From: Bacteroidales bacterium | GTDB taxonomy: Bacteria > Bacteroidota > Bacteroidia > Bacteroidales > UBA932 | Assembly: GCA_017509685.1 (NCBI GenBank) | Contig: JAFWPA010000022.1 | Span: 1 to 32,765, forward strand | Direction of reading: 5' to 3' | Length of the DNA stretch: 32,765 nt | Shown: piece after piece, positions 1-21,384 of the stretch | How the letters are laid out: the number at the start of each line of letters is the position of its first letter | How positions within the stretch are numbered: the first letter of the stretch is position 1 | The notes under the pieces: generated by a model | What the model was told of the DNA's origin: nothing | The model's input: only the letters and a program-made list of their open reading frames with translations | Database searches by the model: none | Position numbers and translations under genes: made by a program

Positions 1-1
1 A

Positions 2-550
2 GGAGATAAACCAGATAAATTTTATTTAATATTAACAGGAAGAATAGGAATATTTAAACCAATTGAAGTAATAGAAACATTCTCAGGAATGGAATATTTT
101 AGATATATTTATAAATTAAAAATAGACAATGAAATATATTTATTAAATTTAATTTTAGATCAGAATAGACATATATTTGATGTTAAATTTGAAGATTTAG
201 ATAATATAAATAATCTATTATTATCAAATTTAATAGATGATTTTTTTATAAATCCTTCTCAATTTAACTTCGAAGATATTCTCACTTATTGTTTTAAAGA
301 CAAAAATTATTTTCATTTAACTATTGATCATGAACAAAAAAAAGACCCAGCTTATATGAGTGAAATTGAATATAAAATATATAAAAAGTTACCAAAAATT
401 TCTAAATATATAATAGATAATTATAAATCATTTTTATTCAATAAACAAAAACAAAAAGTCAAAATATATAAATATCATAAATTTTTAGAATTATCTGATT
501 TTGATTTTTTTGGTGACAGTGCAATGGATAAAACAACAACGAGAAATAAG
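2..550 (+). CDS. Partial cyclic-nucleotide-binding-domain protein, foreign (eukaryote-like) DNA
   Basis: The frame is open from base 2, with no start codon needed, and the codons are almost all A/T. The first residues read [18 protein letters not shown], matching the core of cyclic-nucleotide-binding (cNMP) domains, where a G-D-x-x-D-x-F-Y-x-I-x-x-G strand pattern is typical. About 140 residues later FFGDSAM resembles the F-G-E-x-A-L phosphate-binding motif of a cNMP domain, so the fragment may span parts of two such domains, as in protist cGMP/cAMP-dependent kinases. Base composition, codon use and family differ completely from the rest of the window. The frame runs on to a stop at 562, but the last residues come from dnaK antisense sequence. 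My inference is a rumen-ciliate or other AT-rich protist gene fragment; a different AT-rich source is possible. Confidence 0.5.
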
Positions 551-556
551 CGGGAC
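540..556. other. Probable chimeric junction (AT-rich foreign DNA / Bacteroidales dnaK)
   Basis: Composition changes abruptly here from strongly AT-rich to GC-rich. On the minus strand DnaK reads correctly through the conserved A-Y-F and then turns into unrelated residues. On the plus strand the cNMP-domain frame runs into the same bases. Roughly ten bases around GAAATAAGCG could belong to either side, which is what a microhomology join looks like. DnaK also shows ITGPAYF here instead of the near-invariant ITVPAYF, a further sign of error at the join. Confidence 0.75.
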
Positions 557-974
557 CGGTGATCACGGCCTCGGTCACTTCCTGGCGCAGGTATTCCTCG
601 GCGGTCTTCTTCATCTTCTGAAGGATCATGGCCGATATTTCCTGCGGCGTATAGAGCTTGCCGTTGATGTCCACGCGGGGCGTGTTGTTCTCTCCGCGGA
701 CTACCTTATAAGGTACGCGGGACACTTCCGTATTTACCTGATCGAAGGTTTCACCCATGAAACGCTTGATGGAGAATACGGTGTTGTTGGGGTTGGTAAT
801 AGCCTGACGCTTGGCAGGAGAGCCAATCTTGCGCTCTCCACCGTCGGTGAAGGCTACCACGGAAGGGGTAGTGCGCTGCCCCTCGTTGTTGATGATGACG
901 GTAGGCTGATTGCCTTCCATCACAGCGACGCAGGAATTGGTGGTTCCCAGGTCGATACCGATAATTTTACCCAT
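543..974 (-). CDS. dnaK: Molecular chaperone DnaK (Hsp70), N-terminal 144 residues only
   Basis: DnaK is the ATP-dependent Hsp70 chaperone that works with DnaJ and GrpE in the cytoplasm. The fragment begins [21 protein letters not shown], the phosphate-1 loop of the actin-like ATPase domain, and continues through [22 protein letters not shown] and EVTEAVIT, all canonical Hsp70 segments. About 500 residues are missing because the contig switches to foreign AT-rich sequence after A-Y-F at 543. This is a break in the assembly, not evidence of a truncated gene in the organism. ATG at 974 is the canonical start. I could not identify its promoter in the 975-1098 spacer, which also holds the terminator of the gene upstream. 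Confidence 0.95.
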
Positions 975-1008
975 AGTTATAATCTCTTTTAATTGTTATT
1001 CAATAAAA

Positions 1009-6744: not shown

Positions 6745-7800
6745 ATGCTTCTCGTTGCCGTCAGCGGAGGCATCGATTCCATGTGCCTGGCCCAAAAGGT
6801 CCGTCTGGAAGGCGGGCCTTTTGCCGTTGCACACTGCAACTTCGGCCTACGCGGCGAAGAGAGCGACGCCGATGAAGCCTTCGTGCGCGCCTGGTGCTCT
6901 TTGAACGGCATTCCGCTTCACGTAAAACGCTTTGATACACAGGCGTTTGCCACCGCCGAAGGCATCTCCGTAGAGATGGCCGCCCGGCGCCTGCGCTACC
7001 ACTGGTTCGGGGAACTTTGCCGGGAACACGGCTACGAAGCCGTAGCCGTGGCGCACAACGCCAACGACAACGCCGAAACCCTGCTGCTGAACCTGCTCCG
7101 GGGCACCGGCCTCCGTGGCATCACGGGCATGAAACCGTCCGGCTTCCTCCCGGATCCCGATTACGGCGACATCCCCCTCCTGCGGCCCCTCCTGGCCATG
7201 ACCCGGGCCGATATCGAAGCCTTCGCCGCCGACCAGGGCCTCTCCTGGCGCGACGACAGCACCAACGCCCAGAACGATTACAAACGCAATAAGATCCGCA
7301 ACTTGGTCTTCCCCATCTTTGCCGAAATTAATCCCTCCTTCATCCAAACTCTGAACCGGGATATGGAACGGTTCTCCGAAGAGATGACTGCCGGAGTGGC
7401 GCTGGACCAGGTCCAGAGGAGTGCGGTGGACCAGGTCCAGGGTGCGGTGGACCAGGTCCAGGAGTATACCATTACCGAAGAAGAATGGGACGGAACGAAG
7501 GAGGTGAAACAGCCGGAGGGGATGCTGATTTTGGATAAGGAGAAGGCTGGAGAGTGGGTGGAAGGAAGATGGGAGACGGGAGACTGGATTAGGCCGTTAG
7601 GTGCACCGGGAAAGAAGAAGATGCAGGACTGGTTTACGGACCATCATATTCCGGCCGATGAGAAGCCGTTCGTGCCGCTGCTGAAGAGCGCGCGGGATCC
7701 GCATCACGTGCTGGCGGTGGTGGGACACTGCATCGACCACAGTGTCCGGGTCACAAAATCCACTCGCCAAATCCTTCGGATTTCCACAAAAAATTTGTAA
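6745..7800 (+). CDS. tilS: tRNA(Ile)-lysidine synthase TilS with repeat-filled linker
   Basis: TilS modifies C34 of the CAU-anticodon tRNA-Ile to lysidine, using ATP. The PP-loop SGGIDS is at residues 8-13 (VAVSGGIDSMCLA), followed by HCNFGLRGEESDADE and AHNANDNAETLLLNLLRGTGLRG, both characteristic of TilS. A C-terminal domain is recognisable near residues 285-345 (RPLGAPGKKKMQDWFTDHHIP). The 351-residue length is shorter than many Bacteroidota TilS proteins. Between catalytic and C-terminal parts, residues about 219-239 consist of three DQVQ-containing units encoded by a palindromic DNA repeat that also occurs between genes at 12694. This looks like a repeat invasion of a tolerant linker. 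The ATG at 6745 lies 4 bases after the preceding stop. Confidence 0.95.
   Translation: MLLVAVSGGIDSMCLAQKVRLEGGPFAVAHCNFGLRGEESDADEAFVRAWCSLNGIPLHVKRFDTQAFATAEGISVEMAARRLRYHWFGELCREHGYEAVAVAHNANDNAETLLLNLLRGTGLRGITGMKPSGFLPDPDYGDIPLLRPLLAMTRADIEAFAADQGLSWRDDSTNAQNDYKRNKIRNLVFPIFAEINPSFIQTLNRDMERFSEEMTAGVALDQVQRSAVDQVQGAVDQVQEYTITEEEWDGTKEVKQPEGMLILDKEKAGEWVEGRWETGDWIRPLGAPGKKKMQDWFTDHHIPADEKPFVPLLKSARDPHHVLAVVGHCIDHSVRVTKSTRQILRISTKNL
7401..7462. repeat. Three copies of the GGACCAGGTCC palindromic unit inside tilS
   Basis: CTGGACCAGGTCCAG appears three times, separated by AGGAGTGCGG and GGTGCGG spacers. Each core is an inverted repeat around a central A (CTGGACC / GGTCCAG). The units keep the frame open and encode LDQVQ or VDQVQ. 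A fourth related copy lies between genes at 12694-12717 in the same orientation. Confidence 0.85.
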
Positions 7801-12685: not shown

Positions 12686-12693
12686 ACTATTGG

Positions 12694-12717
12694 TCGTGGA
12701 CCTGGTCCAGGGTGCAG
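12694..12717. repeat. Intergenic copy of the GGACC[A/T]GGTCC unit
   Basis: GTGGACCTGGTCCAGGGTGC here matches GTGGACCAGGTCCAGGGTGC inside tilS at all but the central base of the palindrome, in the same orientation. It lies 8 bases after the stop of the WbqC-like gene. Confidence 0.75.
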
Positions 12718-12728
12718 GATTGTGCCAT

Positions 12729-12809
12729 AACGAATTATAGCCTTATTTTTCGTAACGCCAAGATCCGCGGATTTTGACATTACGAGAAAAAAGGCCAAAT
12801 CTCGTTACC
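12729..12809 (-). repeat. 81-bp inverted-repeat element, copy 1
   Basis: Read on the minus strand this begins GGTAACGAGATTTGGCC and ends GGCTATAATTCGTT. The two ends are imperfect inverted repeats of about 30 bases around a GC-richer centre (AATCCGCGGATCTTGG). Copy 2 at 26821-26901 has the same 81-base length; by hand about 68 of 81 positions agree. It sits between convergent genes. I see no coding capacity, so a REP- or MITE-like element is the best guess. The rest of the spacer, 12810-12899, holds nothing I recognise. Confidence 0.8.
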
Positions 12810-12899
12810 GGACGTTCCTTAGAGACCAAGAGATATCCCTATCCGTGTGCACTATAGCCCTCTGTTGCACTTGACTAGCCGCACGCACGGTGTCAATAC

Positions 12900-13700
12900 T
12901 CATAAGGCCGTCTCCTTTTTCGGCCCAGCAATGAGTTGGCGGTACTGCCAGGACTTGCACCAGCAATGGGTTTCGAGCGCTCTCTCACACATCTGGGGAT
13001 GTGTATTGAAAGCAATTCTGCCTGCCTGCTGGACTTTGTCCCACACGGACTCTCCCTGAAACTTCTCATACTCGGCTGCCTGCCGGACGAGCTGATAGGG
13101 GTCACCTTGGATCTTTTCCAGACCAGAGGTTAGTTTAAGCAAAGCTCGCTGGAAAGTCTCCTCCCCGACCACGGCGGCAGCGCAACGGTCTGCAGATAGC
13201 TCGCTGCACCGACTCCAGTACCGCAGAGCAATCAAGCAGGGCAGGAACACCGTGTCGGAAAGCAGACCGAACAAATCCCCTGCTTCCTCCATTATGTGAA
13301 GGATGGTGAGGTAGAGGGAATGCTGACAAAGGACATGTCCGCACTCATGGGCCAGGATGCAACGAAGTTCCTGTCGGTCCATTTTCTCCACCATGGAAGA
13401 ACTGACGGCAACGAAGGGGGCCTCATTTCCGAACGTGTAGGCGTTCATCTGAGGAGAGTTATAGATGAAGAGCCGAGGCTCCTCGATCCCCACCCTAGCC
13501 ACCACTTCGTGTAGTGTCCGGGCCACCTCCGGGAAGTTCTCATCAGTCACCTTGATGAGTTCCCCGAGGTTCTCGCCACGGTACAGCCGTTCGTAGCCAT
13601 ACCGAAGAGCGATGGAGGCAACAAGGTCGAACCCTTTAAGGGAGCGGAAGACCTGAATGGTCTTGGCATCGCTGGGATGCATGATCTCACGGGCTTCCAT
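12900..13700 (-). CDS. M48-family zinc metalloprotease
   Basis: The protein has 266 residues. The zinc motif HECGH lies in LRCILAHECGHVLCQHSLY near residue 140, and the third ligand is in SELSADR about 50 residues later, the arrangement of M48 (HtpX/Ste24-like) peptidases. NAYTFGNEAPFVAVSSSMVE upstream is the usual substrate-side strand. Only one moderately hydrophobic stretch separates the two zinc motifs and there is no N-terminal signal, so the enzyme may be cytoplasmic or peripherally bound. It starts inside the stop of the YaaW-like gene (TAATG), indicating coupled translation and a shared task. Known M48 members handle damaged membrane proteins; the substrate here is unknown. Confidence 0.9.
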   Translation of the reverse strand: MEAREIMHPSDAKTIQVFRSLKGFDLVASIALRYGYERLYRGENLGELIKVTDENFPEVARTLHEVVARVGIEEPRLFIYNSPQMNAYTFGNEAPFVAVSSSMVEKMDRQELRCILAHECGHVLCQHSLYLTILHIMEEAGDLFGLLSDTVFLPCLIALRYWSRCSELSADRCAAAVVGEETFQRALLKLTSGLEKIQGDPYQLVRQAAEYEKFQGESVWDKVQQAGRIAFNTHPQMCERALETHCWCKSWQYRQLIAGPKKETAL

Positions 13701-14491
13701 TAGGCGTCCCTCCCTTCTTCCTGAAGTTCAAGACGCATCAGGGCCACCTGGATGACCGCAGGGATGCAAACCCGGTAAGCGGGAGAAGCGATGTCCCAGG
13801 CCGTCCATCCAGTGAGGATGATCCATCCCAGAGGACCAGCCAGAACACCCAGCGAACGCTGGAGAGAGCGGGCACCCACTACCGCGACACCGCGGCCGAT
13901 GACGAAGGAGAGGAACTCGTAGGTCATCGAAACAGCAACACGGCGAAAGAAGATGGGGCTAATCCGCATCGCAGCGAGAATCGCTGCCGCAATAGCCTGC
14001 TTCGTCAGACCTTTTGCGGGAATATCCAGCTGGTCGGCGACCGTGCGGAGTTCCTCCAGCGTCAAGGACTTGAGGCCGGCCTCACAGAGCTCTTCCAGGA
14101 GCGCGTGCTCCATGGTGGCAGCATTATCGTACTTGCCGACCTTCACCTTCATCTGGTGGCACACACGGCGTACGACAGTCTCATAACTGTCGGGCGTGTT
14201 GTACCGGAGAGCGGTGGCGATGCTGTTGCTGCCAAAGCGCAGCAACTCGTCGGCAATAGCTGGAGCGAGAGACTGCATCTGCTCGGGATAGTTCTCGAGG
14301 TAAACCTCCTTTGAGGTCAGGTGCTCAGTCAGTCGGAGATGGCCGTTTTGGTCATGCGTGAGGATATCACACAGCTTCTGAAGCTCACTGTTGTCACAAT
14401 GTGCCAGAAAACTGAGGTCTCGGTCCATGCTGCTGTCAGCGCGGAAAGAGGTGAAGAAACGGGAAAGGGGGGTATCGAAAACAATCGGCAT
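13700..14491 (-). CDS. YaaW/DUF3944-family protein
   Basis: The product has 263 residues from ATG at 14491 (a TTG at 14530 would add 13). MDRDLSFLAHCDNSELQKLCDILTHD, in pieces, matches the DUF3944 start of the YaaW (UPF0174) family. ELLRFGSNSIATALR and YETVVRRVCHQMKVKVGKYD continue it. The C-terminal quarter is hydrophobic with AGPLGWIILTGWTAWDIASPAYRVCIPAV, the conserved YaaW end, suggesting membrane association. The family's function is unknown. In this island it overlaps the M48 protease gene by two bases, so the protease may act on or with it. A good -7 element and an operator-like inverted repeat lie upstream. Confidence 0.8.
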   Translation of the reverse strand: MPIVFDTPLSRFFTSFRADSSMDRDLSFLAHCDNSELQKLCDILTHDQNGHLRLTEHLTSKEVYLENYPEQMQSLAPAIADELLRFGSNSIATALRYNTPDSYETVVRRVCHQMKVKVGKYDNAATMEHALLEELCEAGLKSLTLEELRTVADQLDIPAKGLTKQAIAAAILAAMRISPIFFRRVAVSMTYEFLSFVIGRGVAVVGARSLQRSLGVLAGPLGWIILTGWTAWDIASPAYRVCIPAVIQVALMRLELQEEGRDA

Positions 14492-14624
14492 AAGCAGAAA
14501 GTTTAGGGTGACCGGTACGAAAATGCCCAAGACCGGCCTCGCGGCAGAATTGGTTTTTTGTTTATTCTTATAAACCCTTCCGCGTTTCCTTCAGCGATGT
14601 AAAGAACTTCCTTTGTTTACGGCA

Positions 14625-14651
14625 CAAAGGTAAGCCGTTTTATTTTAGCAA
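14625..14651 (-). promoter_or_regulatory. Promoter of the YaaW-M48 operon
   Basis: On the minus strand TACCTTTG (14625-14632) is an exact -7 match, with TTG at 14649-14651 as a possible -33 element. The inverted repeat at 14654-14670 starts 2 bases upstream of that -33 candidate. Confidence 0.6.
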
Positions 14652-14653
14652 GT

Positions 14654-14670
14654 GTGAAAAGTCATTTCAC
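14654..14670. promoter_or_regulatory. Operator-like inverted repeat GTGAAAAGTCATTTCAC
   Basis: Arms GTGAAA and TTTCAC are perfect, with a five-base spacer. Two further copies occur in the island at 18975-18991 and 19060-19076. It lies just upstream of the YaaW promoter and 8 bases beyond the end of the receiver-domain gene. I infer that the WYL regulator encoded in the island binds here. Confidence 0.5.
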
Positions 14671-14678
14671 GGAATTGT

Positions 14679-15704
14679 TCATAATAATTCAATCTTACCA
14701 AGAATCTTTAGCCCCGGTTTTGACTCTTTATTTATGATTCTTCTACTAAGATACCAGCGCATTATAACAAAAAAAGATTCATAGGCAGCGTCTTGTATAT
14801 GAGCGTTGTAAACGGCTGAAGTCTCACCTTCACGTAAATAATCTGGATGAGAATGAAGAAAATGGCTCCAGTTATTTGTCAAGTCTCCCATGAATTGAAG
14901 AACAATTCTTATCTCTCTTGGACATTTTTCAAAGGGATAAACTGGATTATTATAATCGAACCCCTCACTATCTTTCTTTGGATAGCAGTCTCTGGAAATA
15001 TAATTAAGCCTCTTATTGAACTTCGTTATCTCGTCTGCTGATTCCTTGGTCAAACGAATTTCTCCTATTCTAATGAGTTGATCAAGCATATTTTCTAATA
15101 TAATTCGCATATTATTATACGGATTATATAAATAATCTTTCTCGTGGTAATGCTTCATAATGTCATTCATAGCGATCCAAGTACGCTCAGAGGCATCAAT
15201 AAAGCCATCCTTCATTAATTGCAAGCAATACTCATGACCATTATAATAACGAATATATGGAGCAGATTCCAAATCATGCTTGATTAATTGGAAGAAGTCC
15301 GGAATCTTGACATTCTTAGAAACCTTGACTCCCCCCTCCTTTTCAAAATCTTCGATAATATACTTAAGCCCTGGGTCATCATTTATTGTTCCTGAGTAAA
15401 TATACTTTTTAAGAGGCAATCCCTGCAACCTGTCATTGGCCTCTTTGAAAATACGGTTGTTTTGGGAGTCCTTTCTATCCAAGCCATGTAAATCTAATAT
15501 TACTACTTGGTATTGCTGCCACTGCTTAAGTTTTGCTAAAAACTCATCGTAGAAAGGTACGCCATCAACTTCAAAGCCAAATAAGTTAGCATCCTCCTTG
15601 GCTTTCTCAAGTCTTCTTCTATTATTTTCTTTATCGGAATCTCCCTTTGCTAAGATAGCAGATTGAAAATCATCATCAAGCCATAGAATCTTTATGTAGC
15701 TCAT
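14679..15704 (-). CDS. Receiver-domain protein with helical C-terminal domain
   Basis: The product has 341 residues. Residues 1-125 look like an atypical response-regulator receiver: the acidic cluster LDDD at 9-12, a candidate phospho-acceptor Asp71 in VVILDLHG, and YIYSGT at 101-106 where the switch Ser/Thr normally sits; no clear conserved Lys follows. There is no DNA-binding domain. Residues about 135-341 are predicted helical by eye, with RYYNGH (R-x4-H, 152-157) and near the end NNWSHFLHSH and AAYESFFVIMRWYLSRR, reminiscent of HEPN-type or other defence effectors. It follows the GHKL gene by 5 bases, forming a kinase/receiver-like pair. The gene is AT-rich compared with the contig, a sign of transfer. 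RNase activity is a guess. Confidence 0.75.
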   Translation of the reverse strand: MSYIKILWLDDDFQSAILAKGDSDKENNRRRLEKAKEDANLFGFEVDGVPFYDEFLAKLKQWQQYQVVILDLHGLDRKDSQNNRIFKEANDRLQGLPLKKYIYSGTINDDPGLKYIIEDFEKEGGVKVSKNVKIPDFFQLIKHDLESAPYIRYYNGHEYCLQLMKDGFIDASERTWIAMNDIMKHYHEKDYLYNPYNNMRIILENMLDQLIRIGEIRLTKESADEITKFNKRLNYISRDCYPKKDSEGFDYNNPVYPFEKCPREIRIVLQFMGDLTNNWSHFLHSHPDYLREGETSAVYNAHIQDAAYESFFVIMRWYLSRRIINKESKPGLKILGKIELL

Positions 15705-15709
15705 CTTGC

Positions 15710-16645
15710 TTATTTCTTTAATGTTATTATGTAAGTAAAAACGAACTCCCCATTCGCAGAGGTCTTGATTGTCAGATCCCCCCCCATAGATCTCATCGCC
15801 TCTCTGGCTGAGTGCAAACCGTATCCACTATGTCCCTTTTCCCCATCATAAAACCCAGGCGTGAATAGTTTGTTTGTATCCCCTAGATATGGTGTCCCGT
15901 TGTTTGAAATATAAATAATAATAGAATCATCATTCTCCTTAAACGAAACCTTTACCTTATTCTCAAATAAGTAATTCTCTTTTGTATGCGACGTAGAGAA
16001 AGCATGTCTTATGATATTTGCTTGAATATTATTTAGCACAGAATTAACGAATAAATCCTTATCTACATTAACCATCGCATCACAAAACTCTAGTTCATGC
16101 TCATACCAGACATCTGCGTTTTTAATCTGGTCCAGCACTTCTTCAGCCAAACAGAGAAGGTTACTTGAAGTAATCCTTGTTTCCCTGTCTTTAAGTGGAC
16201 GTCTGACGGAGAGTTTCGTAATGTCCGAGATTAAGCATTTTTTTAAGCCAATTGCCACTCCGGAGGTCTCCTTTGCGCGTAACCCAAACTGGTTGTTAAG
16301 GTTATATAGGTGACCATACTTTTTTTGTAGTTTTTGATAAAAATTGCAAGCCTCCTTAATAATGCCAATACTGTCCGCGCAGAAGATGTCAGCTTTCTTA
16401 TAAAACTGTTCTAGTTGTTCTTCCTCCGGATCGCCTTCAACGTTCCATTTTTGGTCAAGGAATGAACAAACTCGTTCGCTATTATGGTTAATAGTATCCA
16501 TTTCCTGCCCTAACCTTGGAAAGAATTCTTCTTCCATCGCACCGGGCAGTTTCATCCATGAAAAAGGCTCGAAAACCATACCGAGACGAAGATTAATGTC
16601 ATGCTTGAGCTCGGTCTTTTCAATTATGAGTTGATTAATAGTCAT
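15710..16645 (-). CDS. GHKL (HATPase_c) family ATPase, histidine-kinase-like
   Basis: The product has 311 residues. Residues about 197-311 form a GHKL ATPase domain: N box SVLNNIQANIIRHAF (about 202-216), G1 region IYISNNGTPY (about 243-252, with Asn where most members have the adenine-binding Asp), and G2 KGHSGYGLHSAREAMRSMGGDL in pieces from about 270. The N-terminal 190 residues are helical without membrane segments. A His in ELKHDINL (residue 15) could be a phospho-acceptor, but I see no standard HisKA box. Together with the receiver protein downstream it resembles a soluble two-component pair. Start ATG at 16645 overlaps the stop of the preceding gene (TAATG). It is AT-rich like its two partners. 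Confidence 0.85.
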   Translation of the reverse strand: MTINQLIIEKTELKHDINLRLGMVFEPFSWMKLPGAMEEEFFPRLGQEMDTINHNSERVCSFLDQKWNVEGDPEEEQLEQFYKKADIFCADSIGIIKEACNFYQKLQKKYGHLYNLNNQFGLRAKETSGVAIGLKKCLISDITKLSVRRPLKDRETRITSSNLLCLAEEVLDQIKNADVWYEHELEFCDAMVNVDKDLFVNSVLNNIQANIIRHAFSTSHTKENYLFENKVKVSFKENDDSIIIYISNNGTPYLGDTNKLFTPGFYDGEKGHSGYGLHSAREAMRSMGGDLTIKTSANGEFVFTYIITLKK

Positions 16646-17583
16646 TATGCAATACGTTCAATATTACGACATATTATGCCGACCTCATTAGACATTTTTC
16701 CAAGGAGTTTAGCATTTCTCACAATCTCAAATAGCTGTCTTCTCGGATATCCCTCAGCAGAATAATCAAGATTCTCTTTAGGAAGAGAAGATAAAGAAAC
16801 TTTTGAGAGTGTCTTTTTTGTCTCCTCTACTAGCCGTGTTATCCGCTTCTTCTGAGCTCTGAGTATGGATTTTTGCTGAGGAATATTGATTCTCTCTAAT
16901 TCTTGCTTCAACAGTTCAATTTGTGTGTCGTTCCTTTTACGAACAAGCAGCCCCCCACCAAAGATTCCAGCGGCGCTAATTCCCCATCCGATAGGGCCAA
17001 GAATAGCCAAAAGAGCAGACCCGGCAGCCATTCCTCCTCCGCCAGCCGCAATGGCCCCTCCGCCTAACCAAGCCAGTGCTGCGTTTGTTGCGGCGGCTCC
17101 ACCCAATGCGGAAATGGCTACGCCAGAACTAGTAGAGCCAAATGCCGTAGCCACAGCCATAGCGGCAGATGGACCAAGTGTTGCGGTTAAACCTCCGGCG
17201 ACAGCTCCTGCTGCTGCAGCAGCATTAACCCCATTTGAAGAAGCGGCTTCCTTATTTAGTAAGCCCTGTTGTGCCGTTTCATATGCATCGGCTTTTTCTA
17301 TATTCTTCATGAATAACAGTGCTCTTCCGCAACTATCTTTTAATACTTGAGGATGATTAGCCAAATTCTCCACATAGAAATTTAAAGCCTGTATTGAACG
17401 CAGTGATTCTTTACGTAATTCGTATAGCCTTTCTGATTGGCGCATAATGTATTTATCAGCATTCTCGCAGTAACTAATGAAGCCATTATACTCGTCAATT
17501 TTATCTTGTAGGGCTTGCGCATGAGTGATGAAATTAGTGGCCTTCCTAACAAATCCCATAAGTTTTTCTTTCTTTTTGCCCAT
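16645..17583 (-). CDS. Ala/Gly-rich membrane-associated protein with coiled coils
   Basis: The product has 312 residues from ATG at 17583. An in-frame ATG at 17619 is disfavoured because it lies on the wrong side of the -7 element, upstream of the expected transcript start. Residues about 10-115 are charged and probably coiled coil. Residues about 118-218 are Ala/Gly-rich and hydrophobic, with AAAAAGAVAGGLTATLGPSA, ALAWLGGGAIAAGGGGMAAG and LAILGPIGWGISAAGIFGGG, which could form glycine-zipper hairpins in a membrane. The last 95 residues are basic and helical again. I do not recognise a named family; this glycine-rich core recurs in phage and defence-associated proteins from memory. It is translationally coupled to the GHKL gene, so a role as the sensor's membrane partner or effector is plausible. 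Confidence 0.65.
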   Translation of the reverse strand: MGKKKEKLMGFVRKATNFITHAQALQDKIDEYNGFISYCENADKYIMRQSERLYELRKESLRSIQALNFYVENLANHPQVLKDSCGRALLFMKNIEKADAYETAQQGLLNKEAASSNGVNAAAAAGAVAGGLTATLGPSAAMAVATAFGSTSSGVAISALGGAAATNAALAWLGGGAIAAGGGGMAAGSALLAILGPIGWGISAAGIFGGGLLVRKRNDTQIELLKQELERINIPQQKSILRAQKKRITRLVEETKKTLSKVSLSSLPKENLDYSAEGYPRRQLFEIVRNAKLLGKMSNEVGIICRNIERIA

Positions 17584-17607
17584 AAACTTCATTTTAGTCG
17601 AGACAAA

Positions 17608-17615
17608 CAAATATA
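17608..17615 (-). promoter_or_regulatory. -7 element for the coiled-coil/GHKL/receiver operon
   Basis: TATATTTG on the minus strand matches TAnnTTTG and lies 25 bases upstream of the chosen ATG. No -33 element or copy of the 17-bp inverted repeat was seen here. Confidence 0.45.
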
Positions 17616-17648
17616 GCAATTATCCTTGAATATTGATACTAATTGCTT

Positions 17649-17680
17649 CTGGTAGACTAGGCAATTGCCCAGTCTACCAG
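17649..17680 (-). terminator. Strong hairpin spanning the stop codon of the YeeR-like gene
   Basis: Arms CTGGTAGACT and AGTCTACCAG (17649-17658, 17671-17680) pair perfectly; after one mismatch the interior GGCAATTGCC is itself a palindrome. The last seven codons and the stop of the upstream gene are coded in the hairpin. There is no T tract after it, so it may protect the 3' end or attenuate transcription into the next operon instead of being a classical terminator. Confidence 0.55.
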
Positions 17681-18787
17681 TTTCTTGGTGCCCATCTGCA
17701 CCCCCATCCCTACTCCCAGGCCACCGATGAAGCCGCCGATAGCGGTTCCGATGCCCGGGAAGATGGCTGTGCCGATGGCGGCTCCGGCAACAGCGCCACC
17801 CCAACCACCGGCCGTTCCGGCCGTGTTCACGATGGCATTCTTGCCGGTCTCCTTCCAGGACTGTTTGCCCCGGCAGGAGCGGACAATGTCCGGAACCGTT
17901 ACCGCCACGGTAGTTGCAGCTGCCATCAGGACGTTGCTGCGAGCAATCTTCGTAGCAGCGTTTTTGACAGCTTGTTCCGTGGCCTGCTTGCCCACCTGAC
18001 GGGAAGCCACCTGAGTGATAGTCTTCCGACCAATCTCCGTCTGATAGGCAGCCTCCACGGCCTTGCGGGCACCCTTCGTAACCCAGGCCATCGTGTCACG
18101 ACCGGCTTGAGTGCGGAAGAACTGCTGCATGGCCACGCTGACCGTCAGGTATGTGGCGCCGGTTGCCAGAGCACGCTTGTAGGCGCACTGGAAGGCATCC
18201 TTCTGAGATGCGCCCTTCATCCGGCAACCGGCATAAGTCAAAACGAAGGTAAGCCCCGTCAGGCAGGTGCAGGTCACTGCGTGGCTCATCACGTCGTACT
18301 TGAGCGACTCGATGTTGCCAGCCTTGGCGACTTTGGCAGCCTGCTCGTAGGTGCAGTGGCCCTCAACAACCCATTTGCTGGCTTCAGCAGGGTCGGTGAC
18401 ACCGGGCACGTCACCCTTGCGAATACGCTCCGCAAAGTATCGGATGGCATCCTTTCCCTGGCCCTTGGGGACCTCCAGCTTCATTCCGGGGTAACGGAAC
18501 TTGCCGGTGGCCTGGTCAAAGGCATTGTAGACGGAGTCGTACGCACTGCTGCAGTACTTCGTCTGAATCTTGATGCCGTTGACAATGCGGTCGGCGCCGT
18601 TGAGCTCATTGCTAAGCCCAACCTTGTCGACGTGCTTGCCGCACAGCCGGTCAACCAGAGCGTTCCAGTCCTCTGCAGCCCAGCCGTTAGCTCGGGATGC
18701 GGACATGTGGTTCCACTGGGTGGATTCAATGTTAGAAGCGCTTTCAACCGATGCTGCTCCAAGAACGGCGTTCTCAATCTTCCTCAT
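17657..18787 (-). CDS. YeeR-like protein with C-terminal glycine zipper
   Basis: The product has 376 residues from ATG at 18787; the frame is open to 18829, but the extra residues look non-coding. The N-terminal half is soluble, with IQTKYCSSAYDSVYNAFDQ, MKLEVPKGQGKDAIRYFAERIRKGDVPGVTDP and YEQAAKVAKAGNIESLKYD (in pieces), a pattern I associate with the YeeR-type proteins of prophage and accessory regions; this assignment is from memory. Hydrophobic helices follow (CTCLTGLTFVLTYAGC). The last 60 residues are a glycine-zipper stretch, GGWGGAVAGAAIGTAIFPGIG and GGFIGGLGVGMG, which could insert into a membrane. It has its own promoter with two operator-like repeats upstream. Its function is unknown. 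Confidence 0.7.
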   Translation of the reverse strand: MRKIENAVLGAASVESASNIESTQWNHMSASRANGWAAEDWNALVDRLCGKHVDKVGLSNELNGADRIVNGIKIQTKYCSSAYDSVYNAFDQATGKFRYPGMKLEVPKGQGKDAIRYFAERIRKGDVPGVTDPAEASKWVVEGHCTYEQAAKVAKAGNIESLKYDVMSHAVTCTCLTGLTFVLTYAGCRMKGASQKDAFQCAYKRALATGATYLTVSVAMQQFFRTQAGRDTMAWVTKGARKAVEAAYQTEIGRKTITQVASRQVGKQATEQAVKNAATKIARSNVLMAAATTVAVTVPDIVRSCRGKQSWKETGKNAIVNTAGTAGGWGGAVAGAAIGTAIFPGIGTAIGGFIGGLGVGMGVQMGTKKLVDWAIA

Positions 18788-18841
18788 AGGAAAAAAGGGA
18801 CCATCCCTACTGACCCACCAGCTTGGCACTCGCCAGGGTGA

Positions 18842-18868
18842 GGTCCTGCCCGGGACTATATGACAGGA
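18842..18868. other. Possible leader hairpin of the YeeR-like gene
   Basis: GTCCTG and CAGGAC form 6-bp arms around a 15-base loop in the roughly 150-base leader between the promoter near 18946 and the start at 18787. There is no T tract after it in the direction of transcription. Nothing else recognisable lies in the leader. Confidence 0.3.
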
Positions 18869-18945
18869 CGAATTCCTTTTTGTTTTTTTGCTTAATAATT
18901 GGTCGTCTTGTCGCAGCGTCAGTATTTCAAAGAGTTTCGTTGGTG

Positions 18946-18953
18946 CAAAGGTA
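18946..18953 (-). promoter_or_regulatory. -7 element of the YeeR-like gene
   Basis: TACCTTTG on the minus strand is identical to the -7 element of the YaaW operon. TTG occurs at 18964-18966 and at 18978-18980; the second lies inside the operator-like repeat. Spacing to either is not ideal, so the -33 assignment is open. Confidence 0.55.
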
Positions 18954-18974
18954 GGTGGTTTTTCAACACCTTCT

Positions 18975-18991
18975 GTGCAATCTCATTTCAT
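18975..18991. promoter_or_regulatory. Operator-like motif, weaker copy
   Basis: GTGCAATCTCATTTCAT agrees with GTGAAAAGTCATTTCAC at 13 of 17 positions by hand, with the TCATTTCA half intact. It lies 21 bases upstream of the -7 element of the YeeR-like gene. Confidence 0.4.
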
Positions 18992-19059
18992 AGTTACAGT
19001 CATCGCCATCCCGAAACCGGAACGGCGATGCAAAGATGGAGAGAATAAATGTCTTAAGT

Positions 19060-19076
19060 ATGAAAACTCATTTCAC
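19060..19076. promoter_or_regulatory. Operator-like inverted repeat, strong copy
   Basis: ATGAAAACTCATTTCAC agrees with the 14654 copy at 15 of 17 positions. It overlaps the stop codon of the WYL regulator gene and lies 84-85 bases upstream of the weaker copy, that is, about eight helical turns away. Confidence 0.5.
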
Positions 19077-20084
19077 GGTATAGAGCCCAAGAACCTTTTG
19101 AACAGTAATCTTGATGGTCTCTCTCAGCGATGCAGGGGAAACCACCTCTACATCGGGGCCAAAACTCAACAGAAGGGAAATCAGTTCTTTGTTGACAACA
19201 ATCTCGGGGATAGTCAGTTTGGACCATCCCGGGCAATTCGGTATTATCTCGATCCTCTGGTCTGGATGGATGGGTTTGGTGTCAATGTAACCGATTCTGG
19301 AGGAAGCCACCTTCAGTACAACCTTTTCCACCCGGGGCTCCTTGTCGAAGGCGCCGGAGACGCCGTACACATTGGAGAAACGGTCTGCTATTTCACCCAA
19401 ATGGCAAGGTATGTATTCCCCCTTACCCGGAATGTCAACTTCCTCAATTCGGTCAATGGCGAACGAAGTTAAATTCTGCCGATTATCTATGCGTGCAATT
19501 AAAAACCATCGGTCATTGAACTGCCGGAGCATATACGGGGAGATGTTATACTCCAATACCTCCTTTCCATACGGCTTGTAGGAAAGCGTTACGGCCTTCT
19601 TGTGGGTAATGGCATCTAAAAGAGGACTGAACCATTCGTCTATGCCTTTAAGGAAGGCATTGTTGGAAAACTGAACCGTATCCAGCTCAATGTCACTGGC
19701 GTTCTGCCCAGTAATAACGTGTTCAAGCAGACTGAGGAATAAGGCGTAATTGGGATTTATCCCGTATTCACGGACCTTCCCAAGGAGTTTTGCCAGAATT
19801 CTTTTGTCTTCTTCCGACAATACATTCTCCATAACAGAGAAGTCGGGGTCAGAATAGCGATAACGAATCCCCCTCCCATCCTTAGGGAGATTCTCGTCAA
19901 ACGGCGCGTGGTACTCTTCCTTGAACTTTTTGATGTCAGACTTGATAGTCCTGGCGGTTTTCTCGATTCCATGGTCCGAGAGTATAGCTCTCAGTTCTTC
20001 AACGGAATAGCCATTCTTGTTCTCATCACGGAACAAGGTATCTAGGATTCTGTGCCTCTTTCTTTGATTAACGTCTGTTGCCAT
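19068..20084 (-). CDS. WYL-domain transcriptional regulator
   Basis: The product has 338 residues. An N-terminal winged helix-turn-helix (RKRHRILDTLFRDENKNGYSVEELRAIL, then ARTIKSDIKKFKEEY, in pieces) is followed by a WYL domain around residues 145-225 (LSYKPYGKEVLEYNISPYML, RQFNDRWFLIAR, FAIDRIEEVDIPG) and a C-terminal WCX-like extension (VVLKVASSRIGYID to the end). WYL proteins sense ligands, often nucleotides or nucleic acid, and are frequent regulators of phage-defence loci. The gene starts 9 bases after the Csx3-like ATPase gene and is in its operon. I infer that it binds the inverted repeat seen three times in the island. No such site lies before its own operon, so autoregulation is not supported. 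Confidence 0.9.
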   Translation of the reverse strand: MATDVNQRKRHRILDTLFRDENKNGYSVEELRAILSDHGIEKTARTIKSDIKKFKEEYHAPFDENLPKDGRGIRYRYSDPDFSVMENVLSEEDKRILAKLLGKVREYGINPNYALFLSLLEHVITGQNASDIELDTVQFSNNAFLKGIDEWFSPLLDAITHKKAVTLSYKPYGKEVLEYNISPYMLRQFNDRWFLIARIDNRQNLTSFAIDRIEEVDIPGKGEYIPCHLGEIADRFSNVYGVSGAFDKEPRVEKVVLKVASSRIGYIDTKPIHPDQRIEIIPNCPGWSKLTIPEIVVNKELISLLLSFGPDVEVVSPASLRETIKITVQKVLGLYTVK

Positions 20085-20093
20085 TTTTACTGG

Positions 20094-21224
20094 TTATAAG
20101 TCTTTAATCATGCCCAACTCCATGGAATTCCCAGATTCTACACAGATATAGTGATTGCCGGGTTGGAACAAGAACTTGGTATCGTTTGAATAACTGATAA
20201 AGATGGACGCTATAACCCACATAGGAAAACGTCCTAACAAGAAAAGTGGCTTTTTCTCATCAATTGTCGGGATGGAGAGATGCTCAAAGTTGGATTCGTG
20301 TACCGAACCCATCATGTTTTGACGGAGCAAAACATAGTTATCTCCTTCTTCAAGTTTCCATTCGGATGAAAGAGAGGAAATCGGAGCTTTTGGAAGCACA
20401 CCAACAGCCTTGAACTCCCCAGACCTGTCATCAAAGAATGAAACTTGATTCTCCCGGCACAGTACATTTGCCGCAACGGCAGCGACCCAGTTAGCTTTCA
20501 AGCCAAAGATTTTATATCTGTGATCCTTTAGGCGCAAAGCGTTTAAGTACTCAAATACTAACGGACCATGTTCGGGACTAAAATGACTGTGGTTCACGCG
20601 GACTCCTTCACTTGTAGTCCATTCCAACGAGCTACCGATACTCTCACCGACCTTACTGAAATCTAGAAAGAAACTGCGGCGGTACCCTGAGGTGCTGACA
20701 ATGAGGTCTGCGAGCCCCTTGATTACTACGGAGTCAAACAGGAATTTACCCCTTTCCAACCCCGAAAGCCGGGCATGCAAGTAATACTTCTCCCGGCAGA
20801 CAATCTCATCATGTCCTCCGTCTAGATCTGACTCAATAGTGGCGAGGCAACGGCAGCCGTGTGATTCGCCGAAATCCTTCCATGGCGCAATCATATCCGG
20901 ATTGGAACTCAATACTACAAAGCTGTCTGCTACTTCAAAGAGAGAAGCTTTATCCTCCTGTAACTTGCCGCCGATATCTATGATGACTATGTCTTGAAAC
21001 GCCTTTTTGATGTTCTCCGTCCAAATGGCAAACTTTTCTGCCGTATTGGCTGATTTGGTACGAACACGGGCAATCTCCTCTTGGTCGGAATTGTTGCTCC
21101 AAGATCCTTCACCGTCTCCATTAGCATTGATTCTAAGATAAGAATCCGACGGCATAAACCTGACCAGATTAGCAATCAAGACACTTTTCCCAGAATGAGG
21201 CGGGCCGCAGATAATAGTTTTCAT
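20094..21224 (-). CDS. P-loop ATPase fused to two tandem Csx3-like modules
   Basis: The product has 376 residues. Walker A GPPHSGKS is at residues 7-14 and a Walker B-like strand DIVIIDIGG near 78-86, so residues 1-180 are a P-loop NTPase. The remainder shows two similar blocks: YKIFGLKANWVAAVAANVL followed by VSFFDDRSGEFKAVGVL (about 237-277), and LFLLGRFPMWVIASIFISYS followed by FLFQPGNHYICVES (about 327-365). Each recalls the G-R-x-P-x-W-L helix plus strand pattern of CRISPR-associated Csx3, a ring-nuclease-related fold that binds or cleaves cyclic oligoadenylate or RNA ends; Csx3-ATPase fusions are known. No CRISPR array or cas gene is present here. The Csx3 assignment is by eye and needs a profile search; the ATPase part is firm. 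Confidence 0.65.
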   Translation of the reverse strand: MKTIICGPPHSGKSVLIANLVRFMPSDSYLRINANGDGEGSWSNNSDQEEIARVRTKSANTAEKFAIWTENIKKAFQDIVIIDIGGKLQEDKASLFEVADSFVVLSSNPDMIAPWKDFGESHGCRCLATIESDLDGGHDEIVCREKYYLHARLSGLERGKFLFDSVVIKGLADLIVSTSGYRRSFFLDFSKVGESIGSSLEWTTSEGVRVNHSHFSPEHGPLVFEYLNALRLKDHRYKIFGLKANWVAAVAANVLCRENQVSFFDDRSGEFKAVGVLPKAPISSLSSEWKLEEGDNYVLLRQNMMGSVHESNFEHLSIPTIDEKKPLFLLGRFPMWVIASIFISYSNDTKFLFQPGNHYICVESGNSMELGMIKDL

Positions 21225-21317: not shown

Positions 21318-21367
21318 GGCAGCACGTCTCAGAGCAAAAAATGGTCAAATCTTGCTCTGAGACGTGC
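21318..21367 (-). repeat. 50-bp hairpin repeat, copy 1
   Basis: AGCACGTCTCAGAGCAA and its exact inverted copy flank a central stretch of about 16 bases, giving a 17-bp perfect stem. Its reverse complement matches copy 2 at 26938-26988, including the loop (AGATTTGA-CATTTT). It lies 17 bases past the stop of the lytic transglycosylase gene and marks the right edge of the accessory island; it may also act as that gene's terminator. Confidence 0.8.
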
Positions 21368-21384
21368 TAAAAGCCCAATCCGTT

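Follow-up and report, generated by a model that had tools for sequence, protein, structure and literature searches.

Detocs is a kinase-receiver defence system, and PADLOC lists as a candidate the system PDC-M09, made up of PDC-M09A and PDC-M09B. JukA is reported to sense early proteins of jumbo phages, to have several effectors and to occur in more than 20% of gram-negatives (PMC13282480); in another study, JukAB is reported to have given no protection with the phages used there (PMC12735699). Here we describe an eight-gene island in DNA of a Bacteroidales bacterium (GCA_017509685.1, contig JAFWPA010000022.1, positions 1 to 32,765; this whole stretch of 32,765 nucleotides is called the window). 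On balance, we consider it probable that it is an anti-phage island of two operons with a linked WYL gene, and that it represents a composite variant of PDC-M09/Juk-type defence. Defence is the function we infer: a predicted nuclease effector, together with the rarity and patchy spread of the genes, makes it the best reading. The locus would then join PDC-M09, JukA/YaaW, WYL regulators and a kinase-receiver pair in one apparently co-regulated unit.

From right to left, the genes are Csx3-AAA, WYL, GZ390, PDC-M09A, a GHKL kinase, a receiver, YaaW and M48 (Table 1). An earlier note, made from the DNA alone, had described eight minus-strand open reading frames (ORFs) here between two housekeeping blocks, and this is what we find, with lpxA/wbqC-like genes on one side and, on the other, a gene resembling a lytic transglycosylase (names read from translations); its family calls for the WYL regulator, the GHKL ATPase, YaaW and M48 are borne out by Pfam matches. 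Co-occurrence elsewhere had been set beforehand as the test that could refute a system of these genes. Seven of the eight, from WYL to M48, stand together in the window's order and on one strand in a Paludibacteraceae metagenome-assembled genome from horse faeces (L036). Identities to the window are 34% for WYL, 40% for GZ390, 32% for the kinase, 30% for the receiver, 43% for YaaW and 49% for M48, and the PDC-M09A proteins match at 4e-33. By sequence comparison the seven genes are a conserved cluster, and that their order has been kept at 30-49% identity suggests that they function as a unit.

Three further genomes have partial sets. A Bacteroidales locus (L081) has YaaW-M48 followed by BnzB-type, PDC-M09A and WYL genes; Paraburkholderia (L094) has PDC-M09A, PDC-M09B and JukA with a divergent WYL; and a genome of the window's genus (G600:C53; L119:3566-8146) has YaaW/JukA, PDC-M40B, a TerB-like gene and PDC-M09A, a variant from which the nuclease slot seems swappable. 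The PDC-M40B protein there (profile 2e-46) has hydrophobic helices and, by eye, an HNH-like motif. Shorter combinations include a single run of WYL, PDC-M09A, PDC-M09B and GZ840 (L010:231-5993) and, in Lactococcus (L012), WYL followed by a GZ-type gene. The L010 run is rare in E. coli, where part of it was matched in 24 of 5426 genomes and at least 80% of it was covered in 4. Upstream of the seven-gene set of L036, an M48-TerB fusion (L036:5518-6717) is possibly another part there. In a contig of a second genome of the genus (G619; L021:3-6025 and 13515-14837), M48 lies at the contig edge with WYL and a 617-aa protein, which has a weak Colicin-DNase/WHH match and a membrane-like part, and GZ440 follows about 10 kb on.

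A shared upstream element links the two gene groups that follow the WYL gene. Three places in the window carry the palindrome GTGAAATGAnTTTTCAY, which gives four rows since one palindrome is read on both strands; 0.43 matches were expected and 0 of 100 shuffles reached four rows, figures that are flattering because the pattern was derived from two of its three places. Each palindrome is the start of an element of 46 nt with CTTTG at its end, one before YaaW and two before GZ390 (Table 1), and no place elsewhere in the window reaches 27/46. A 26-nt repeat (14650/19056) is part of these elements. The upstream elements of YaaW and GZ agree at 43/48 positions in L036 (40 shuffles: mean 24.1, maximum 27) and at 31/48 in the window (40 shuffles: mean 24.7, maximum 28), whereas the GZ elements of the window and of L036 agree with each other at 23/40, which is chance level (shuffle maximum 26). 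The promoters thus match within a genome but not from one genome to the other, the pattern expected of a common regulator that co-evolves with them. These two genomes are the basis of the paired-promoter result; no such pair was found in L081, L021 or G600 (best 24/40). Probably, then, there are two operons in one regulon, and the WYL protein is the obvious candidate regulator of the shared element. The earlier note had left undecided whether the island was one system or two to three neighbouring ones; that the promoters are shared speaks for a single system.

Within the presumed operons the genes are closely packed: GZ390 and PDC-M09A are 37 nt apart, kinase and receiver 5 nt apart, and PDC-M09A/kinase and YaaW/M48 each overlap by 1 nt, while Csx3-AAA lies 9 nt upstream of WYL (all from coordinates). 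The YaaW start is probably 14428 rather than 14530, because the profile match begins there, and that of GZ390 may be the ATG at 18787. The earlier note had seen the island as bordered by repeat elements; both ends carry strong hairpins, not direct repeats such as flank a mobile element. The right one (21321-21368), a perfect inverted repeat with 17-nt arms and a 14-nt loop, is terminator-like and separates the transglycosylase-like gene from the island; the left one lies at about 12720-12830. A GGACCAGGTCCA-type palindrome is present at window 7393-7465 and at about 12691-12714, the latter at the island's left edge.

Table 1. Genes and promoter/operator-like elements of the island, with window positions.
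Feature	Position	Strand	Description
Csx3-AAA	20094..21224	-	376 aa; PADLOC C3a67 (AAA-Csx3) 2.4e-31, residues 4-347
WYL-WCX regulator	19068..20084	-	338 aa; Pfam WYL 8.2e-13, WCX 7e-11
Promoter/operator-like copy 1	19031..19076	-	overlies WYL stop codon, 5' of GZ390; 30/46 to YaaW copy
Promoter/operator-like copy 2	18946..18991	-	5' of GZ390; TACCTTTG at end; 30/46 to YaaW copy
GZ390	17657..18829	-	predicted PD-(D/E)XK-like nuclease domain at about residues 45-125; C-terminal glycine-zipper hydrophobic segment
PDC-M09A	16645..17619	-	324 aa, glycine-rich, membrane-type; PADLOC PDC-M09A 2.1e-64, residues 38-309
GHKL ATPase, histidine-kinase type	15710..16645	-	HATPase_c 7.2e-9; K-H-D near N terminus (H15)
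Receiver-like protein	14679..15704	-	helical C-terminal part; D10-12, D71, K130 kept in L036
Promoter/operator-like element	14625..14670	-	5' of YaaW; palindrome GTGAAATGACTTTTCAC, then TACCTTTG
YaaW/JukA family	13700..14428	-	242 aa; PADLOC JukA 2.5e-43; Pfam DUF3944/YaaW 2.8e-12
M48-family metallopeptidase	12900..13700	-	266 aa; HExxH motif is HECGH; Pfam 3.2e-21

GZ390 is predicted from its conserved residues and its model to carry a PD-(D/E)XK-like nuclease domain. E53, D80, Q89 and K91 (Q89-x-K91) are invariant in 42/42 aligned relatives, comprising 8 GZ-type and 34 of 48 PDC-M09B-type ORFs; the remaining 14 had been excluded beforehand, 13 as weak matches (14-70 bits) and one from L085 (413 aa). 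The last motif has Q in place of D/E. In the structural matches of the GZ390 model (pLDDT 89.1, pTM 0.84), rows 1-27 are families that we take to be of PD-(D/E)XK type. An earlier model from 3 sequences had a pLDDT of 49, and no usable match came from a Foldseek search with it; profile searches against PDB sequences returned no nuclease and no convincing row, and GZ390 has no convincing family match, LeoB (0.0056) being the only PADLOC match at E<=1. Residues 346-373 are hydrophobic and Gly-rich, with a weak Gly-zipper Pfam match (0.019, below cut-off).

Relatives were sought with a PDC-M09A alignment and glycine-rich peptide patterns in a collection of 84,980 species, keeping the best 80 of 86 loci, so that proportions do not give prevalence. 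Neighbours were counted over 86 loci (80 genome and 6 from a viral scan with PDC-M09A), 85 of which have a PDC-M09A ORF. Beside it stand members of the PDC-M09B-type cluster in 51 (some weakly alike), BnzB-type genes in 23, YaaW in 3 and GZ-type genes in 3. Of the 80 genome loci, 79 have the ORF (81 copies, two of them second copies), with WYL inside 7 kb of it in 8 and YaaW in 3. A short ORF was the only match of the PDC-M09A profile in 295 other genomes: the 134-aa glycine-zipper ORF of G249 (L003) covers profile positions 68-174 only, and we did not count it as a full PDC-M09A. An adjoining 492-aa ORF has a glycine-rich part and, by eye, a PD...VK motif, and it may be distantly related to the pair. 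The JukA profile matched none of 197 other genomes of the phylum and the receiver none of 246 other genomes; GZ390 was found in 1/120 genomes of the genus, and YaaW in 0/60 relatives and 1/299 in the genus. Viral scans with the receiver, M48, GZ390, YaaW, GHKL and Csx3-AAA proteins gave no relatives, and a search of phage records with GZ390 gave one (35% identity, with 57% of the query covered). Neither PDC-M09A nor the receiver had a match in plasmid searches; 28 plasmid records hold a WYL relative. In three of these the neighbourhood was inspected: that of Prevotella has type I restriction-modification genes, that of Fibrella a patatin/ThiF cluster taken for CBASS, and that of Phocaeicola no recognised defence gene.

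Among 392 other genomes of the order, 6 had an M48 match. We rejected these six stretches as copies of the system: none has YaaW (L113 ends at the contig end), and their M48 partners are others. Five of them (L110-L113, L115) have a partner protein of about 165-190 aa (with starts such as MGTFN and MGVFK), by eye sometimes downstream of sigma-factor-like genes; this is apparently another M48 pair that recurs. In L114 two M48 genes stand in tandem. Envelope stress commonly involves M48 proteases and two-component pairs, and an operon for cell-envelope or protein-quality stress, in which glycine-zipper membrane proteins, M48 and the two-component pair answer envelope damage, would draw on this as well as on the different neighbours of the six M48 relatives. 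We regard it as quite improbable: the predicted nuclease domain of GZ390, the JukA and PDC-M09A profile matches, the rare and patchy distribution of the genes, and the restriction-modification or CBASS-like neighbours in 2 of the 3 WYL neighbourhoods inspected all speak against it.

Two observations weigh against an anti-phage island that is a single composite unit. The strong GC mosaicism weighs most heavily against one unit of ancient origin: GC content at third codon positions (GC3) splits the island into three parts, and the island is therefore assembled or partly replaced by recombination, while the same gene order in L036 has an even composition (GC3 0.28-0.39). The other is that only one full second copy was found, that of L036. 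A defence hot spot, in which two or three independent modules (PDC-M09-like, JukA-M48 and Csx3-WYL) stand side by side under one promoter type and each works alone, would account for the mosaic; it is also in keeping with YaaW on an E. coli plasmid without the other genes, with GZ-type proteins without PDC-M09A in L011, L012 and L013, and with the different partner set of YaaW-M48 in L081. Set against these are the same seven-gene order in L036, the promoter pairs that match within each genome, and YaaW within 7 kb of the PDC-M09A ORF in 3 of the 79 genome-scan loci that have one (a count not set against a random expectation), and we hold the hot spot to be unlikely. Outside the island, GC content drops to 34% in window positions 1-1000, while it is about 58% elsewhere; this edge of the contig may be a further acquired segment.

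Csx3-AAA is probably an adjunct. The earlier note had read it as a P-loop ATPase with two Csx3-like modules; an N-terminal ATPase and one degenerate C-terminal Csx3 domain stand up (Cas_csx3 Pfam match weak, 0.0047, below cut-off), and the second module does not, the two halves being no more alike than shuffles (60/300 reach the score). H57, H60, D69 and R71 are reported to form the ring-nuclease active site of AF1864 (PMC7371418). The C-terminal module appears to have I, S, Q and G in their places, on a weak alignment (E 0.015) and our own number mapping. Cas10 (PF22335) gave 0 matches in the window's genome, which is 2.3 Mb long and 79% complete, and matched 5 of 14 controls. A Csx3-AAA profile that finds the window gene has no match in the L036, L081, G600 and G619 genomes, where no control matched either; a sequence search found none in 197 other genomes, and a profile search none in 177 other genomes of the order. 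With the ring-nuclease residues lost, no Cas10 match and the gene not found in related genomes, we rejected Csx3-AAA as the core of cyclic oligoadenylate signalling; as it was not found in L036 and the three others, its place as a core part of the island is not supported either. It is perhaps a WYL-linked ligand-binding ATPase.

The kinase and receiver were proposed as a pair, which the HATPase match and the receiver residues suit, while the receiver protein has no Pfam or other family match above cut-off. Kinase residues 14-16 (K-H-D) and its HATPase residues are conserved, as are the receiver residues of Table 1, each in the two sequences compared (window and L036), and their fit to a two-component pair is suggestive only. 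A protein-protein output of the receiver is likelier, because no DNA-binding domain was recognised in it. A DefensePredictor candidate with HATPase and REC has a similar pairing.

For the composite island favoured here we propose the following course. Operon 1 (GZ390, PDC-M09A, kinase and receiver) and operon 2 (YaaW/JukA and M48) would share a common promoter/operator, most likely bound by the adjoining WYL regulator. YaaW/JukA would detect a structure, presumably of phage origin, that forms close to the inner membrane early in infection, and His-Asp phosphotransfer in the kinase-receiver pair would pass or gate the signal. In the membrane, PDC-M09A would assemble with the glycine-zipper tail of GZ390 and so bring the PD-(D/E)XK domain onto DNA that is entering or membrane-associated, which it would cleave. 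M48 might cut a protein target, which would set the effector free or make M48 itself a second effector. That such a phosphorelay gates immunity, with a glycine-zipper membrane nuclease under the control of a JukA-type sensor and of a kinase-receiver pair in the cytosol, M48 as a second arm and all in one WYL regulon, is a tentative idea that we rate well short of probable. If two-component signalling gates a membrane nuclease, phosphorylation could follow infection sensing, and if the whole phosphorelay reading is true, PDC-M09B, found in many phyla, is a family of membrane-anchored PD-(D/E)XK nucleases. A membrane-anchored nuclease would suit the entry of any DNA, and relatives occur on plasmids and in viral-labelled contigs. 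An anti-plasmid or inter-element conflict system, whose nuclease would attack conjugative DNA as it enters at the membrane and for which phages are not the target, is nevertheless quite improbable, given the reported activity of JukA against jumbo phages (PMC13282480).

The seven-gene set was not found in print among open-licence PMC papers. The claim that no described system has this set holds for the whole, which was unmatched in the searches made, and fails for parts that match JukA and the candidate PDC-M09A. Like Csx3'/AAA-Csx3 of type III CRISPR loci, the window protein matches the AAA-Csx3 profile, and in Nostoc (L016) a Csx3-family gene likewise adjoins a WYL-domain gene, there with type III-B CRISPR genes. 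Unlike those loci, the window's genome has no Cas10 match and its Csx3 domain no ring-nuclease residues, and the part of the Nostoc protein that matches the window ATPase is its C-terminal end. As in Detocs and other kinase-receiver defence systems, the window has a histidine-kinase-type ATPase and a receiver, but its effector appears to be a separate glycine-zipper nuclease.

YaaW matches JukA over nearly its whole length (profile 7-241 of 245), and diverse JukA effectors are described (PMC13282480). In the window, however, the YaaW partner is an M48 peptidase, the locus carries a PDC-M09-like operon, and the scarcity of JukA profile matches in the phylum differs from the frequency reported for gram-negatives. 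None of the eight window proteins has a JukB-named match at E<=1, the presence of a JukB model in the PADLOC library being unchecked. For Bunzi (BnzA/BnzB), no window protein matches a Bnz profile at E<=1, but the BnzB-type genes beside PDC-M09A in 23 of 85 loci (L006, L024, L041, L042, L044 and others) make PDC-M09 and Bunzi look related. Compared with PDC-M09 itself, GZ390 has no PDC-M09B profile match and is shorter, and the window adds the kinase, receiver, JukA and M48. In common are the PDC-M09A profile match and the invariant G-E-D-QxK core that GZ390 shares with the 34 aligned PDC-M09B-type proteins, through which PDC-M09B, a candidate defence family without characterisation, would gain a testable activity, that of a PD-(D/E)XK nuclease at the membrane.

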